Shown here: positions 20,115-46,568 of the stretch, piece after piece
Position numbering within the stretch: position 1 is the first letter of the stretch
Layout of the letters: every line of letters starts with the position of its first letter
IMG/VR virus record: IMGVR_UViG_3300001796_000003
Location: 33,044-97,043 of that record
DNA: 64,000 nucleotides
DNA from: a virus
Direction: 5' to 3' (one strand)
Notes under the pieces: generated by a model
Seen by the model: the letters and a program-made list of their open reading frames with translations, nothing else
The model's database searches: none
What the model was told of the DNA's origin: nothing
Made by a program: the position numbers and the translations under genes

Positions 20115-23100
20115 ATGTCCAAGTTTAAGCCTGTAGTTCAACTGCACAATCACAGTAAATACAGTTTGCTTGATGCCGTACCTAGTCCCCAAGATTGGGT
20201 TCGTTGGTGTTTAGAAACTGGTACGCCGGGACTGGCCGTAACCGATCATGGTACGGCCATTTCCATGTATGATGCCATTCGAACGCCCGATCTCATTAAG
20301 AACATCAACAAAGAGAACAAAGACTGGAATAAGGAGAACCCAAAGAAGAGTCCTCGTCCCGAGTACCCTTTGGATGCGGCGAAATTAATTCCCGGTGTTG
20401 AGTTATATGTGAAGCTCAATGCTGAAGACGAAGGCCATTATCACATTACTGTGTGGGCTTGCTCGAACGAGGGCTACCACAATTTGATGAAGCTCGCGTC
20501 GTTGGCCTACAACGATACTGTGAGCTATTATGGCTCTCTTAAAGCAAGAGTGACCTACGAACAGATCAAGCAATACAAGGCTGGTCTCATGTTCGGGACC
20601 GGTTGCATTGTCGGTCCGATCGGTCAGGCCATCATGAAGAACAAAGACAAGAAGCTCGCCGAAGAACGGTTCCTAATGTACAAGGAGCTGTTCGGCGACG
20701 ATCTCTTAATTGAGTTTCACGTCGGTGATATAACCCACGACTTTAATAAGAAGACTGGTAGTTTTGACGCGTTCCCTGTCGAAGAGGGACCAGACCAGTG
20801 CACATGCGACCACAATAAGCAACGTGGATACAACCTCTTCTTAAAGGAGATGGTCGAGAAGCACGGCGGCAAGTGCGTTCCGGTAACCGATGCACACTTT
20901 GTCTATCCTGAGGACAAGATCATTCAGGATTGCTTGTTGAAGAACGGTAACTCGAATGGCTGGTATTTCCATGAGAGCTATCATCAGATCATGGCCGACG
21001 AGATGTTCAAAAAACTCCAAGTTCATCTTGGAGAGGAGTGGATGACCGAAGAACGGTTCTCAGAGTGGATCGACAATACCTACATTCCGCTCGAACGGTC
21101 CAAGAGCATCAAGTTCAAGTTCGAGTATCACCTGCCAAAAATTGATATTCCAGAGCACATCAAGGCTAAGGCTCCCGATAACTATGATCAGCAGACTTAT
21201 TGGTACCTAATGGAGCGAATTAAGTTCCATGGTCGCTGGAACAATGACCCCGTTTATGTTCAACGGTTCAAGACTGAAGTAGACGTCATCATGAAGAACG
21301 AGAAGCTCAACTTCCTCCCGTACTTCTTGGTGTATGAGGACATTGGCACATTTGCGCGCTCAAAGGGTATCTTGCAGAACCTGGCTCGCGGTTCAGCTGG
21401 CGGATCGTTGCTTTCGTTTTATTTGAAGATCATTCACATCGATCCTATTAAAGCTCACCTTCCATTTGAACGGTTTTTATCTCATGCTCGTATTCGCGCC
21501 GGATCGTTTCCCGATATCGATGGTGACTTCGGCGATCGTGACCGCAGCCTCATCATGAAGTACTTGCAAGATAAGTACAACTTAGGCTTTGCGCAGATTG
21601 CAACGTTCCAGAAGATGAAGACAAAAAATGCCATTAAAGATGCAATGTATGCTCTATATGGCAAGAAAGGCAATGATCCAGAGGTAATGGCTATCTGTGA
21701 AACAATCCCCGATTCACCTCAGGGTGTTGATGAGCATGACTTCTTGTATGGATACACAGACCAGGAAGGCAACTACAACCACGGGATTGTAGAACTGAAC
21801 AAGACCTTGGCGAAGTTCTTCCAAATTCACCCTGAGATCCAGAAGATGGTTGATAAGCTCATCGGTACAGTCCGTGGCTGGGGTCGACACGCGTCGGCAT
21901 TCGTTATTTCCACGCTAGACTTGTCAGCGGACCGAGTTCCCACAATGATGCTCGACGACGACCATCTAGGTAAGATTCAAGTTACGCAGTATGATGCAGG
22001 CATGGTCGAGAAAAGCGGCCTGGTAAAGGCAGATATTCTCGGTCTTTCGACGCTTACTGCTGTCTCCGATTGTATTAAGCTGATGCAAGACAAAGGCATT
22101 GACTATCTGCAGGAAGAGAACGGCGTGCCTCTCATCTATCGTCTTCCTGAAGATCCGCAGGTCTATGCAGATTTCTATAAGAAAGACACGGACTCGTCTT
22201 TCCAGTTCAACACTGATCTCATTAAGGGGATGGTACAGGAGTTCTGCCCGCTTAATCGGCAGGCCCTAGCCGACTTCACAGCTCTGGCTCGCCCTGGTGC
22301 TCTCGACGCACCACTTGGTGACTCGACTGCGGCTCAGTTTTACATGGACGTGCGAAACGGCGTCAAGAGCCTTACCTATCTGCACGAAGATCTCGAACCG
22401 ATTCTAAAGGAGACCAATGGTGTCTTCGTGTACCAGGAATCCGTCATGCGCTTCCTGGTCGAGATTGCAGGCTATTCTTGGGAGGAATCGGACATCATCC
22501 GGTCCGCTATCGCGAAGAAGAAGCAGGAAGTTATCATGAATTGTTTCGATAAGATCCGTACTTCTTGCAGATCTCGTGGCTGGGATGATGATGCCATCGA
22601 GCAGGTTTGCCAGCAAATTTTGGCATTCTCCCGCTACTCCTTTAACAGGTCTCACTCGTACGCATACGGAGAGTTGGGCTATATTACGATGTATTTGAAG
22701 CACCATCATCCGCTTGAGTGGTGGGCCTCAATGCTCAACCTAGACCTAGCTGAAGATAAGCTTCGTCGCTATGTTTCCAAGCTTGGTGAAATTGTTCGTC
22801 CCCCGTCGCTGAAAAATCCCTCTGACCGCTTTGTGGTGCGTAACGAAGATCCCTTGGGCTTGGGAAAGGAGTACATCTATGCTCCACTCTCAGTGGTGAA
22901 GGGTATCGGACCTAAGGTTGTGCATGAACTCTGCACAAAGGGCCCGTTCGAGAACCTCGAAGACTTCGTGGCCCGAATTGACCACGCCAAGTGCAATACC
23001 GGCGGCATCTCAGCCCTAATTAAAGGTCGGGCCGCTGACGATCTGATGGTTAAGGACGACATGGTGCCTTATGCCGAACGCCGTAAGAAGTTCATCGAGG

Positions 23101-23648
23101 ACTTCAAGAAGTTGCGCAAGAAGCCAATTAAATTGCACGAGGACGTGTTCAAGTTTGATCCCCTGTCCATCTTCCTAATGGAGAAGGAGACCAACAAGGT
23201 CTTCAATAAGACGCTACTCAGCAATCCCGACATCATGGATCTGGTCAAGCGATACCACACAGATGAAGCCTCTCTTGAGCTCAATTCTCTTGTGGAGACC
23301 GGTCGGACGGCTGTCCCATTCAAGATGGGCTCGGTTCCGGTCTTGGCCAATATCAAGGTGGCAGAGGGCTTTTGCGGAAAAACAGATAAGGATGTCGGCT
23401 TGATTCTTCTGTATGAGTCATCATCTTTTACGTCTGGTGTTTCTAAGAAGAGTGGCCGTCCGTGGTCCAAGGTGGCTGTAAACCTGTCCGATGGGTACGC
23501 TACTATTGAGTGCGTTGACTGGAAAGGCAAGAAGGCCTTCGGGTGGAATAAGAACACCATCGTGTATGTCCGCGGCGAGTTGAAGCCGGGCTGGAAGACT
23601 CCAGTTTGCTTAGATATACATGAAATTCAGCGTCTCTCAGACGATTAA
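20115..23648 (+). CDS. DNA polymerase III alpha-type (C-family) replicative polymerase
   Basis: 1177 residues, a full DnaE-type polymerase. The N-terminal PHP domain opens with LHNHSKYSLLDAV and has AVTDHGT and VTDAHFVYPED. The polymerase core has PDIDGDFGDRD (about 465) and LVKADILGLSTL (about 636), carrying the three catalytic aspartates. A C-terminal OB-like domain (about 1070-1170) ends the protein. Phages more often use family A or B polymerases, so a C-family enzyme is a marked trait of this lineage. RBS GAGGAG precedes the start. No separate proofreading exonuclease was seen in the window. Confidence 0.95.
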   Translation: MSKFKPVVQLHNHSKYSLLDAVPSPQDWVRWCLETGTPGLAVTDHGTAISMYDAIRTPDLIKNINKENKDWNKENPKKSPRPEYPLDAAKLIPGVELYVKLNAEDEGHYHITVWACSNEGYHNLMKLASLAYNDTVSYYGSLKARVTYEQIKQYKAGLMFGTGCIVGPIGQAIMKNKDKKLAEERFLMYKELFGDDLLIEFHVGDITHDFNKKTGSFDAFPVEEGPDQCTCDHNKQRGYNLFLKEMVEKHGGKCVPVTDAHFVYPEDKIIQDCLLKNGNSNGWYFHESYHQIMADEMFKKLQVHLGEEWMTEERFSEWIDNTYIPLERSKSIKFKFEYHLPKIDIPEHIKAKAPDNYDQQTYWYLMERIKFHGRWNNDPVYVQRFKTEVDVIMKNEKLNFLPYFLVYEDIGTFARSKGILQNLARGSAGGSLLSFYLKIIHIDPIKAHLPFERFLSHARIRAGSFPDIDGDFGDRDRSLIMKYLQDKYNLGFAQIATFQKMKTKNAIKDAMYALYGKKGNDPEVMAICETIPDSPQGVDEHDFLYGYTDQEGNYNHGIVELNKTLAKFFQIHPEIQKMVDKLIGTVRGWGRHASAFVISTLDLSADRVPTMMLDDDHLGKIQVTQYDAGMVEKSGLVKADILGLSTLTAVSDCIKLMQDKGIDYLQEENGVPLIYRLPEDPQVYADFYKKDTDSSFQFNTDLIKGMVQEFCPLNRQALADFTALARPGALDAPLGDSTAAQFYMDVRNGVKSLTYLHEDLEPILKETNGVFVYQESVMRFLVEIAGYSWEESDIIRSAIAKKKQEVIMNCFDKIRTSCRSRGWDDDAIEQVCQQILAFSRYSFNRSHSYAYGELGYITMYLKHHHPLEWWASMLNLDLAEDKLRRYVSKLGEIVRPPSLKNPSDRFVVRNEDPLGLGKEYIYAPLSVVKGIGPKVVHELCTKGPFENLEDFVARIDHAKCNTGGISALIKGRAADDLMVKDDMVPYAERRKKFIEDFKKLRKKPIKLHEDVFKFDPLSIFLMEKETNKVFNKTLLSNPDIMDLVKRYHTDEASLELNSLVETGRTAVPFKMGSVPVLANIKVAEGFCGKTDKDVGLILLYESSSFTSGVSKKSGRPWSKVAVNLSDGYATIECVDWKGKKAFGWNKNTIVYVRGELKPGWKTPVCLDIHEIQRLSDD

Positions 23649-23657
23649 ACGCGCGTG

Positions 23658-23663
23658 TATAAT
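23658..23663 (+). promoter_or_regulatory. -10 box TATAAT overlapping an RBS hairpin
   Basis: TATAAT at 23658-23663 without a clear -35. Predicted transcription start is at about 23670, inside the loop of the hairpin at 23660-23680, so mRNA started here would lack the left arm. Confidence 0.55.
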
Positions 23664-23680
23664 CTCCCCACAGGAGATTA
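23660..23680 (+). promoter_or_regulatory. Hairpin sequestering the RBS of the 23685 gene
   Basis: TAATCTCC (23660-23667) and GGAGATTA (23673-23680) form a perfect 8-bp stem with a five-base loop. The right arm contains the Shine-Dalgarno GGAG (23673-23676), 8 nt before the ATG. In read-through mRNA from the polymerase gene the RBS would be buried; mRNA from the overlapping TATAAT box would have it free. Confidence 0.65.
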
Positions 23681-23684
23681 ATAC

Positions 23685-24197
23685 ATGGCTAAATTTGTAA
23701 GCGTCAAGACTGCTCCAACTACCCTCCGTAAGGATGAGGTTGTTTTGCAGTCACCCGACTTCTTGGAACAGATCAGAGCGGCTTCTCACCGTAAGTCTCA
23801 GAGAAACCTCACTGCTCTTAATCACATGAGGGATATTCTTACCCTCATCCAGCAGAAGTTTGAGACCGACCTTCAGATCTTGAAGATTCCACTCTCTCAG
23901 TATGAGGGCTTGGAGTTTAAGGATGAGAAGGAGCTCAGCCGCATCATCATTCGGTTGCTGAAAAATGAACGCCCTCTCGCGTTTGAGAAGTTTTTGGAGT
24001 ATAATATTAGAAACCGGCCATATGGAGTTAAGTTGATCTATTATGTCGGTGATTGGGGCGATACTGGAGCTTTCACTAGAAACGGTATTGACTCAATTGA
24101 AGAGAAGGACATAGATGAATATCTTGGTGTGAAACCCAAGAAAATTGTTGGAAAGCCGGCTGTAACCAAGGAGCAATCTGAGGAATCAGCTAGCTGA
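23685..24197 (+). CDS. Hypothetical replication-region protein under hairpin control
   Basis: 170 residues, helical, basic N-terminus, acidic Glu-rich C-terminus. Central FLEQIRAASHRKSQRN is helical. Not recognised. It lies between DNA polymerase and the ssDNA-binding protein. Its RBS is in a hairpin overlapping a promoter, so it is probably expressed at a different time from the upstream operon. Confidence 0.7.
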   Translation: MAKFVSVKTAPTTLRKDEVVLQSPDFLEQIRAASHRKSQRNLTALNHMRDILTLIQQKFETDLQILKIPLSQYEGLEFKDEKELSRIIIRLLKNERPLAFEKFLEYNIRNRPYGVKLIYYVGDWGDTGAFTRNGIDSIEEKDIDEYLGVKPKKIVGKPAVTKEQSEESAS

Positions 24198-32267: not shown

Positions 32268-34229
32268 ATGGCTTTCTGGGACAATTGGCTTAAAAAGAGT
32301 ATTCAGGGTGAAATTTCAGAGTTGCTGAAGGCGGACGGTATTCCTGCGCCGACGCCTGTTATTTCTGAGACTAATACGGCGGACATGTTGCCGGATGCTC
32401 CCGAGAAGTCGGAAGATGATAAGAAGATTGCGCGACAGTTTGTTGAAGATCCGTACTTTGACATGGTTAGCAATAATTACAACTATAAGACGAAGCTTAG
32501 CCGTATCACCAATCGCACACTTAAGGAAGTCTCCCTTCGCGACTGGCTAATCTCGTCCATCATGCAGATCAGAGTTGATACCGCTGCCCGGTTCGGTCGT
32601 CCGGAGCACCGCCGTCATGAGATGGGCTTCCGTTTTGTCAAGAGAGATGCTGATTCCGACTACACTCCTCAGGAACGTGATGAGATCGCCCAACTAGAAG
32701 ACTTCGTCTATAATTGCGGTCGTAGAGAAAATGTCCCCGCTGAAGACAAGCTGCTCTTTGGCGAATTTCTAAAGCTCACGGTTCGTGATGCTCTTACCTT
32801 TGGCCATGTAGCTGTTGAAAAGGTAAAGACGCGCACTGGTGGCTTGCACCGCTTCCGCCCGCGTCCCGCAGAGTCTATCTATCTCATTAATAAGCAGATG
32901 CCGAAGGCGACTGTTCAAGCTGATGCAAAAGCTGCTCGTAAACTTGCTGCACCTAAGAGCGATAACGATCCCGTACAAGACCAGGAACTAAACACGCCGG
33001 AACACCAGTATGAAAAATATGTCCAGGTGTCCTACGATAATCGGACACTGGCCACCTTTGGCGACGAAGACCTCATCTTCAAACTCTTTAATCCTCAGAA
33101 CTTCATTGACTCCCGTGGGTATTGCTACAGTCCCTTAGAGCTAGCAATCATCACTGTTCGTTCGCACTTGGATGTAGAGAACTACAACGTTAACTTCTTC
33201 ACCCACGGCTATGCTTCTAAAGGCATTCTCCACCTCAAGGGTACGGTTACTCAGCAGCAGCTGGCTAACTTCCGTCGCTCCTTCTATAACAGCATCACTG
33301 GGCAGCAGAATGCCTGGAGAACCCCGATCGTTGCTGGTCTCGAGGAAGTGCAGTGGGTTCCGATTTCAGCTTCGGCGAAGGAAATGGAGTACATTAACTT
33401 CAACAACCACCTGATGCGCATTCTCTGCACTCAGTTCCAGATTGACCCGATGGAACTCGGTCTTGATTACCTCGTCTCTGGTAACGGCAAGGGCAACATG
33501 CAGGCCGCAAGCAGCGAGTACAAGGTGAACTTCTCCCGTGAACGTGGTTTGCTTCCTATCCTCACATTCATTGAAGATCTAATCAACTGCGATATCGTTC
33601 CGGCTATCGATAAGGAGATGTCCGCGAAGTATCGCTTCATCTTTACCGGTTACACGGATGAAACTCCGCAAACGGAGATTGCTCAATTGCAAGCCGAGAT
33701 CTCGGTTTACAAGAGCATGAATGATGTGTTACGCCAGGCACAGAAGGATCCACTCAAACACAAGATCGCCGATTTGCCTCTCAGCGCAGGTTTCTGGGCT
33801 CTAGTCGAAAAGAACTACACTCGTGGAGAGATACGTGAGATGTTCTTGGGAGATACGGGCGCCTCACAGCGCAAGGAACTCCAGTACATTCCTGGGGATC
33901 CCAGCTTCGCTGCTTGGCAGCAGTTCTTGGCTTCAATTGTAAACATGAAGGAACAGAAGCAGCAGATGGCCGCTCAGCAAGATGCACAGGCTCAGCAGGC
34001 TCAGCAGGAGCAGGCTAAGGCCGAACAGGAAGCTCGTCATGCTGAAGAAGCTCACGGCCGTGACAAGGAGAAGCATGAGATGGAGATGGAGCAGTTGAAG
34101 GCAAATCATGCTCACAACGCCGTCAAGGCCGCTTCTCTGCGCGATTCTGCGAAAGAATTCGGTGCAACGAAGGCCAATCATATTGGTGGCCAAACGTTAG
34201 CAAACCCGATTAACAAGCTTGGTGAGTAA
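32268..34229 (+). CDS. Portal protein
   Basis: 653 residues immediately after terL. The central region has FGEFLKLTVRDALTFGHVAV, then NSITGQQNAWRTPIVAGLEE and YRFIFTGY, as in HK97/SPP1-type portals. The C-terminus is a long Gln/Ala/His-rich coiled coil (KEQKQQMAAQQDAQAQQAQQ and beyond) that extends beyond usual portal length and has low complexity. It forms the dodecameric vertex for DNA entry. Similar EHKK-type helical repeats appear in the protein at 55262-56440. Confidence 0.9.
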   Translation: MAFWDNWLKKSIQGEISELLKADGIPAPTPVISETNTADMLPDAPEKSEDDKKIARQFVEDPYFDMVSNNYNYKTKLSRITNRTLKEVSLRDWLISSIMQIRVDTAARFGRPEHRRHEMGFRFVKRDADSDYTPQERDEIAQLEDFVYNCGRRENVPAEDKLLFGEFLKLTVRDALTFGHVAVEKVKTRTGGLHRFRPRPAESIYLINKQMPKATVQADAKAARKLAAPKSDNDPVQDQELNTPEHQYEKYVQVSYDNRTLATFGDEDLIFKLFNPQNFIDSRGYCYSPLELAIITVRSHLDVENYNVNFFTHGYASKGILHLKGTVTQQQLANFRRSFYNSITGQQNAWRTPIVAGLEEVQWVPISASAKEMEYINFNNHLMRILCTQFQIDPMELGLDYLVSGNGKGNMQAASSEYKVNFSRERGLLPILTFIEDLINCDIVPAIDKEMSAKYRFIFTGYTDETPQTEIAQLQAEISVYKSMNDVLRQAQKDPLKHKIADLPLSAGFWALVEKNYTRGEIREMFLGDTGASQRKELQYIPGDPSFAAWQQFLASIVNMKEQKQQMAAQQDAQAQQAQQEQAKAEQEARHAEEAHGRDKEKHEMEMEQLKANHAHNAVKAASLRDSAKEFGATKANHIGGQTLANPINKLGE

Positions 34230-46139: not shown

Positions 46140-46568
46140 ATGAAATCAGAACTAGTTCTGTTTCCCGATCCAATTCTGCGCATCACCTCCGTAGAGTACG
46201 ACTTCTCTAGCAACATCGACTCTCTCATTGAGGGAATGTTCGACGTAATGTATAAAAACAATGGAGTCGGGTTGTCTGCTATCCAAATCGGAGTGCCTCT
46301 GCGACTTATTGTTGCAGACGTAGGAGAAGGCAGAGAGGTTTACATCAACCCCAAGATTCTTCGAATCGGTGGTACCAAGAAATCTATGCCGGAAGGTTGC
46401 CTTTCGTTTCCTGGTATTAGCGACGACATAATGCGTTATGCGAAAATAACAATTTCATATCAATCCCCTAATGGATCGCACTTAACATTAAACACTGGTG
46501 GGTTGAGAGCTCAAATGTTGCAGCACGAAATTGAGCATCTAGATGGTAAGTTGTTAGGTGGGAGATAA
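46140..46568 (+). CDS. def: Peptide deformylase
   Basis: 142 residues with all three deformylase motifs: NGVGLSAIQIG (41-51), PEGCLSFPG with metal-ligand Cys87, and QHEIEHLDG with His129, Glu130, His133. It removes the formyl group from new N-terminal Met using Fe2+ or Zn2+. Shorter than bacterial PDF (about 165) because the C-terminal helix is missing, as in other phage PDFs. First of a translation-linked cluster (deformylase, tRNA, micro-ORFs, hydrolase). Confidence 0.95.
   Translation: MKSELVLFPDPILRITSVEYDFSSNIDSLIEGMFDVMYKNNGVGLSAIQIGVPLRLIVADVGEGREVYINPKILRIGGTKKSMPEGCLSFPGISDDIMRYAKITISYQSPNGSHLTLNTGGLRAQMLQHEIEHLDGKLLGGR

Follow-up and report, generated by a model that had tools for sequence, protein, structure and literature searches.

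A promoter-like box inside an RBS-covering hairpin

Of central interest at this locus is whether the short stretch between a phage DNA polymerase gene and the gene that follows it makes translation of the second gene depend on where its mRNA starts. The locus lies in a 64,000-nucleotide stretch of viral DNA, here called the window, which is part of a 97-kb phage contig contained whole in a 172,623-base record (G001). The features of the locus are the following.

20115 to 23648, plus strand: DNA polymerase III alpha gene (pol), DnaE type (phrog_405, E 1e-203; open reading frame list)
23655 to 23667, plus strand: left arm of the hairpin (core 23660 to 23667), made of the −10 box and discriminator, 5' of the predicted start
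23657 to 23663, plus strand: GTATAAT, conserved −10 element without a −35 (invariance in relatives, enrichment as an upstream 7-mer)
23668 to 23672, plus strand: loop CCACA (sequence, fold)
23670, plus strand: predicted transcription start, 7th base after TATAAT (GTATAAT-N6-ATG leaderless peak)
23673 to 23686, plus strand: right arm (core 23673 to 23680) with the Shine-Dalgarno (SD) sequence GGAG at 23673 to 23676, extending into the AUG (sequence, fold)
23685 to 24197, plus strand: putatively controlled gene, 170-aa protein, between pol and the single-stranded DNA-binding protein (SSB) gene across the phage family
24235 to 25269, plus strand: T4 gp32-like ssDNA-binding protein gene, next in the same direction (phrog_1192, E 2e-8)

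The pol stop codon, TAA, occupies 23646 to 23648, and TATAAT begins 9 nt further on. The hexamer (23658 to 23663) shares bases with one side of a perfect 8-bp stem, TAATCTCC at 23660 to 23667 paired with GGAGATTA at 23673 to 23680. This left arm ends in CTCC (23664 to 23667), and the right arm carries GGAG 8 nt before the ATG at 23685 to 23687. A first-pass annotation had reported this arrangement, a TATAAT at 23658 in the left arm of a perfect hairpin whose right arm holds the RBS of the next gene, and every coordinate was confirmed; a promoter-like box does overlap an RBS-covering hairpin. The stem is longer than the 8 bp reported, reaching about 13 bp when GUGUAUAAUCUCC (23655 to 23667) is paired with 23673 to 23686 around one bulged A at 23680 (−13.3 kcal/mol). 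Because the full stem extends to 23686, it also takes in the first two bases of the start codon, A and U.

The regional fold had a z score of −3.0, with an equally good fold in 1 of 200 dinucleotide shuffles. Among the 59 plus-strand gene starts in the window this was the longest start-proximal perfect hairpin, followed by one of 7 and then 5 bp, and an 8-bp hairpin of this kind appeared in 1 of 885 shuffled versions of those starts. The same hairpin was found nowhere else in the window, and the RBS of the gp32-like gene lies outside it. A scan from the pol stop to the hairpin detected no terminator-like site. The hairpin itself was considered as an intrinsic terminator and rejected: its stem is followed by AUUAAUACAUG, without a U-run, and the terminator scan does not list it.

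The 170-aa protein, for which 51 homologs were aligned, is conserved in the family at this position, with pol on one side and SSB on the other, and its AF2 model has a confident predicted fold (pLDDT 84). It matched no Pfam or PHROG family and had no significant PDB fold match, and DNA and protein searches of named phages for the locus and the 170-aa gene returned no match.

Evidence that GTATAAT is a promoter element

The word TATAAT is not rare in the window (31 occurrences versus 26.5 expected), a −35 hexamer is absent at the site, and a generic sigma-70 consensus scan omits it. A canonical sigma-70 promoter was rejected, since no −35 hexamer stands at a spacing of 16 to 18 nt, and 66 aligned intergenic sites likewise contained no −35 signal. 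For these reasons the promoter assignment rests on conservation and on genome-wide enrichment. Of all 7-mers, GTATAAT shows the strongest enrichment ahead of genes both in G001 (12 versus 1.2 expected) and in a distant relative, G003 (24 versus 0.84 expected). Across the contigs compared from this large phage family, which is uncultivated, 2.4 Mb in all, it prefers the small noncoding fraction in every contig longer than 25 kb. Upstream regions in G003 (L053 to L061) are also enriched in a second motif, TGGTAAAAT, which is perhaps a variant −10; TGGTAAAA occurs there 7 times versus 0.28 expected.

Scanning viral contigs with the C terminus of pol yielded 34 loci. GTATAAT stands immediately after the pol stop codon, or no more than 9 nt beyond it, in the window's virus and in eight distinct close relatives, with differing bases on either side. 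Two of these relatives (L009 and L010) keep GTATAAT though the CTCC arm is gone, and in L010 a different small gene comes next, which argues that the −10 box is retained in its own right.

Searches of G001 with Sigma70_r2 and Sigma70_r4 returned nothing, no gp55-like factor was found there, and a 188-aa open reading frame after the helicase, the position of the sigma gene in Myxococcus phage Mx1, has no sigma similarity. Proteins with Sigma70 region 2, with E values down to 1e-25, are encoded by distant relatives (G029, 74554 to 74763; G030, 98675 to 98884, reverse; G025, 114339 to 114515, reverse) and were not found in the window's virus. A tail-protein gene and a peptide deformylase gene of this virus also have a TATAAT box directly in front of them, which makes a later expression class for TATAAT-led genes plausible, if unproven. 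The phage peptide deformylase gene lies at 46140 to 46568 of the window (phrog_2890, E 3e-32), with GTATAAT 8 nt before its ATG.

Predicted transcription start and RBS accessibility

The distance from GTATAAT to ATG peaks sharply at 6 nt in the family, with 154 sites versus about 16 at a typical other spacing, and a scrambled hexamer gave no 6-nt peak before ATG. In bacteria, a −10 box directly upstream of a start codon is taken as a sign of a leaderless mRNA (PMC3160421), and the GTATAAT-N6-ATG class of the phage family shares this layout. By this spacing, transcription is predicted to begin at the seventh base past TATAAT, A23670 in the window, beyond the left arm. Unlike the bacterial leaderless genes (PMC3160421), the window gene is SD led, and the leaderless class was used just to place the start.

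Apparently leaderless phage genes with GTATAAT exactly 6 nt before ATG form a large class in the family (for example, in G001, G003, and G025; L041 to L061 and L163 to L171), and in several distant relatives pol itself belongs to it. In one such gene, thymidylate-kinase-like, the discriminator and early codons form differing yet matching arms in four orthologs (G009, 42158, plus; G015, 72373, plus; G018, 25599, plus; G003, 162729, minus, in reverse-strand coordinates), the arms being TTGCTC/GAGCAA, GCTCT/AGAGC, TCTCT/AGAGA, and CCTTC/GAAGG.

The predicted cost of opening AGGAG depended on where the RNA began. For RNAs starting at 23600 to 23656 it was 9.8 to 11.6 kcal/mol, falling to about 9 kcal/mol for a start at 23660 and to 4.2 to 4.4 kcal/mol at 23664. 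With a start at 23668 to 23671, it was 0.1 to 0.3 kcal/mol for RNA ending at 23700 and 3.8 kcal/mol for RNA ending at 23720 or 23745. Overall, opening the RBS is predicted to cost 9 to 12 kcal/mol in read-through RNA versus 0.1 to 3.8 kcal/mol in RNA from 23670, where SD positions and stacking energies are approximations. The first-pass proposal that read-through mRNA folds and hides the RBS agrees with the predicted 13-bp stem and the 9 to 12 kcal/mol needed to free the SD. Its further proposal, that mRNA started at about 23670 lacks the left arm and stays open, is supported by the leaderless rule for the first part and largely by the predicted energies for the second, at a cost of up to 3.8 kcal/mol. 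This residual cost goes with pairing of the SD to a CUCC in the downstream coding sequence, and in the model the short RNA is much more open, yet incompletely so.

Comparative sequence evidence supports start-site-dependent translation as originally proposed, and we consider it probable that the −10 box and discriminator of this promoter double as an RNA arm that occludes the RBS. In such a mechanism, 23655 to 23686 would be a promoter whose −10/discriminator DNA reappears, in RNA, as one strand of the stem. Polymerase reading through from pol would make an RNA with 23655 to 23667 paired to 23673 to 23686, and this stem would hide the GGAG and AUG of the 170-aa gene. RNA initiated at the GTATAAT promoter would begin near A23670 without the left arm and would offer its RBS 3 nt from its own 5' end. 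Output of the 170-aa protein would then track use of the GTATAAT promoter, not read-through. What was computed comprises the hairpin, the conservation of the promoter element, the rule that places the start, and the energy difference, together with the family recurrence and compensatory change described below. From these we infer that transcription begins at 23670 and that read-through RNA is translated weakly; any link to early or late timing would likewise be inferred.

Recurrence of the overlap across the phage family

The first-pass annotation had suggested looking for the same overlap in related phages, where it recurs far above chance. The comparison used 141 SD-led TATAAT boxes in noncoding DNA, with the left arm limited to TATAAT plus six bases; gene calls outside annotated records came from a simple custom caller. 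An SD duplex of −8 kcal/mol or lower was found at 23 of the 141, compared to a mean of 9.9 and a maximum of 17 when discriminators were swapped between promoters (500 permutations). To allow for relatedness, downstream proteins were grouped by homology. With one member taken per homologous gene group (67 groups), 8.6 groups reached −11 kcal/mol versus 1.16 ± 1.0 expected, with a maximum of 5 in 600 permutations. The signal was tied to position: 15 sites reached −11 kcal/mol with the arm at the −10/discriminator, versus 0 to 3 at each of eight upstream offsets, and SD-led promoters had no enrichment when the right arm was placed away from the SD or within the first codons. The window's virus itself has a second overlap outside the window, GTATAATTAGCTC...GAGCTAGTT, with 9 bp, before a DUF5675 gene (G001, 32826 to 32849, reverse strand).

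A second orthologous locus precedes an N6/N4 DNA methylase gene (PF01555) with a TTG start, and here the arms match within each virus and differ between viruses. They are GCTCC/GGAGC in G003, G012, and G016, GTTCC/GGAGC in G009, GCTCTC/GGGAGT in G015, TTCTCT/GGAGAA in G011, and ACTCC/GGAGT in G024, so that the pair adjoining the SD core is G-C, G.U, U-A, or A-U. This pattern is that of compensatory change. When left arms were swapped among the methylase orthologs, the mean folding energy was worse in 997 of 1,000 swaps (3 of 1,000 were as good), and for the methylase and window loci together none of 1,000 was as good. Other methylase orthologs, including those in G014, G023, G025, and more, are without the hairpin.

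The main rival to start-site-dependent occlusion is translational coupling, because the upstream stop often lies within 10 nt of TATAAT. The hairpin would then block independent initiation, and ribosomes finishing pol would open the stem and tie the 170-aa protein to pol translation, and the promoter would be a second, uncoupled source of the protein. The stop is 1 to 9 nt before TATAAT at both conserved loci, which puts a terminating ribosome next to or on the left arm, and the 9-nt distance after pol means that the stem might be opened in this way in the window. Coupling cannot explain instances where no called upstream gene ends within 60 nt (G001, 139775, minus; G003, 163406, plus; G030, 128156, minus; G028, 44612, plus). 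Nor would coupling require the arm to coincide with the −10/discriminator, the one position where enrichment is seen, and we regard coupling as unlikely.

Another possibility is that the inverted repeat over the start site acts as DNA, as the operator of a dimeric regulator, with SD pairing a side effect. Dyads spanning the start site do occur at some leaderless promoters, notably that of the thymidylate-kinase-like gene, and departures from perfect pairing in the stems do not favor RNA (9 G.U versus 7 A.C). However, the arm sequences vary by locus and have only SD complementarity in common, and SD-led promoters have no excess of dyads that miss the SD or fall within the first codons, making an operator improbable.

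Ahead of an SD-led gene, at least six relatives have a conserved CCACC(T)GG-TATAAT-...-GGTGG dyad on either side of the −10 box, possibly an operator or an RNA switch. The sites are G003, 149644, minus; G012, 36100, plus; G016, 23945, plus; G018, 12177, plus; G020, 17707, plus; G022, 13048, minus; and G013, 10605, minus.

Conservation of the hairpin in close relatives

Evidence against a role for the hairpin at the window locus includes its confinement to part of the clade. It has 8 to 9 bp in the window, L006, and L008, which form one supported clade, and 6 bp in L027; it is weak in L011, and in L009, L010, L012, and L013 it is missing or only outer pairs remain. Swapping left arms among orthologs of the window locus alone gave folds as good in 324 of 1,000 cases, which is not significant because the arms there read alike, and covariation is therefore not claimed for the window locus by itself. 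Both the restricted distribution and this swap result would suit a coincidence in which the promoter is real and chance plus descent placed CTCC beside GGAG with no regulatory role at this locus, an explanation given little chance by the retention of CTCC in four diverged sequences despite changed spacer and loop, the single such stem in 885 shuffled starts, and the family-wide enrichment and positional restriction of the overlap.

For the family as a whole, the chances seem evenly balanced that start-site-dependent RBS occlusion is a general strategy of these DnaE-carrying phages, arisen independently of T4 and used by roughly one-eighth of the gene groups with SD-led promoters. If so, promoter sequence would be selected for both transcription and read-through silencing, and one short sequence would serve as promoter and RNA switch. 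Such a strategy would supply a testable reason for CTCC-type discriminators in some promoters, and a discriminator complementary to the SD would be a searchable signature for any phage genome.

Comparison with known systems

For decades, a few T4 genes have been known to use the trick of gene e. Inhibitory structures cover the RBS of T4 e, soc, 49, and I-TevI; in e, the lysozyme gene, a hairpin seals early read-through RNA, and late promoters immediately upstream of the RBS yield an open late RNA without the 5' strand (PMC3014915). Similar RBS hairpins have been described for I-TevI to I-TevIII, segB, and Aeh1 mobE (PMC2988022).

The likeness to gene e drawn in the first-pass annotation was recovered by recomputation. 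In both T4 e and the window locus the left arm is the end of the −10 element (ATAAATA in T4) plus the discriminator, the right arm carries the SD, and RNA started at the promoter is, or at the window locus would be, without the left arm; I-TevI and segB gave this geometry too. Recomputed opening costs for long versus short RNA were 14.2 versus 3.0 or 0.5 kcal/mol for e, 11.1 versus 3.9 for I-TevI, and 9.4 versus 4.3 for segB, similar to 11.4 versus 3.8 for the window; with the simple setting used, soc had no comparable difference. T4-type late promoters, TATAAATA, are recognized with gp55 and gp33. Such a promoter was rejected for the window locus, where the element is GTATAAT and not TATAAATA, and no sigma match was found in G001. 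Because the promoter differs and no sigma factor was found, the window locus would work like T4 gene e without being a T4-type late-promoter case. The e mechanism is experimentally proven, whereas the window case is known from sequence and computation, and its controlled gene is unrelated to e.

The nearest cultured relative found was Myxococcus phage Mx1 (OR576727), with a TerL identity of 28.7% over 88%. Mx1 shares the gene order pol III alpha, hypothetical, ssDNA-binding, hypothetical, RecA-like. However, its pol ends almost at the start of the next gene, so that a GTATAAT promoter would not fit between them, and the intervening protein is 245 aa and not detectably related to the 170-aa family.

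As in the window, I-TevI, segB, and Aeh1 mobE have an internal promoter that overlaps an RBS-sequestering hairpin within a longer transcription unit. Those are mobile endonuclease genes with T4 late promoters, whereas the window has a conserved 170-aa gene, and the genes concerned elsewhere in the family include a DNA methylase gene, a DUF5675 gene, and others. In the literature searched, the same mechanism was not found outside T4-like phages. The T4 lysozyme-gene trick is itself known, and what appears to be new here is its occurrence in phages with a different promoter type. Its repeated use with another kind of promoter would suggest convergent evolution of a compact device that leaves a gene deaf to upstream transcription.
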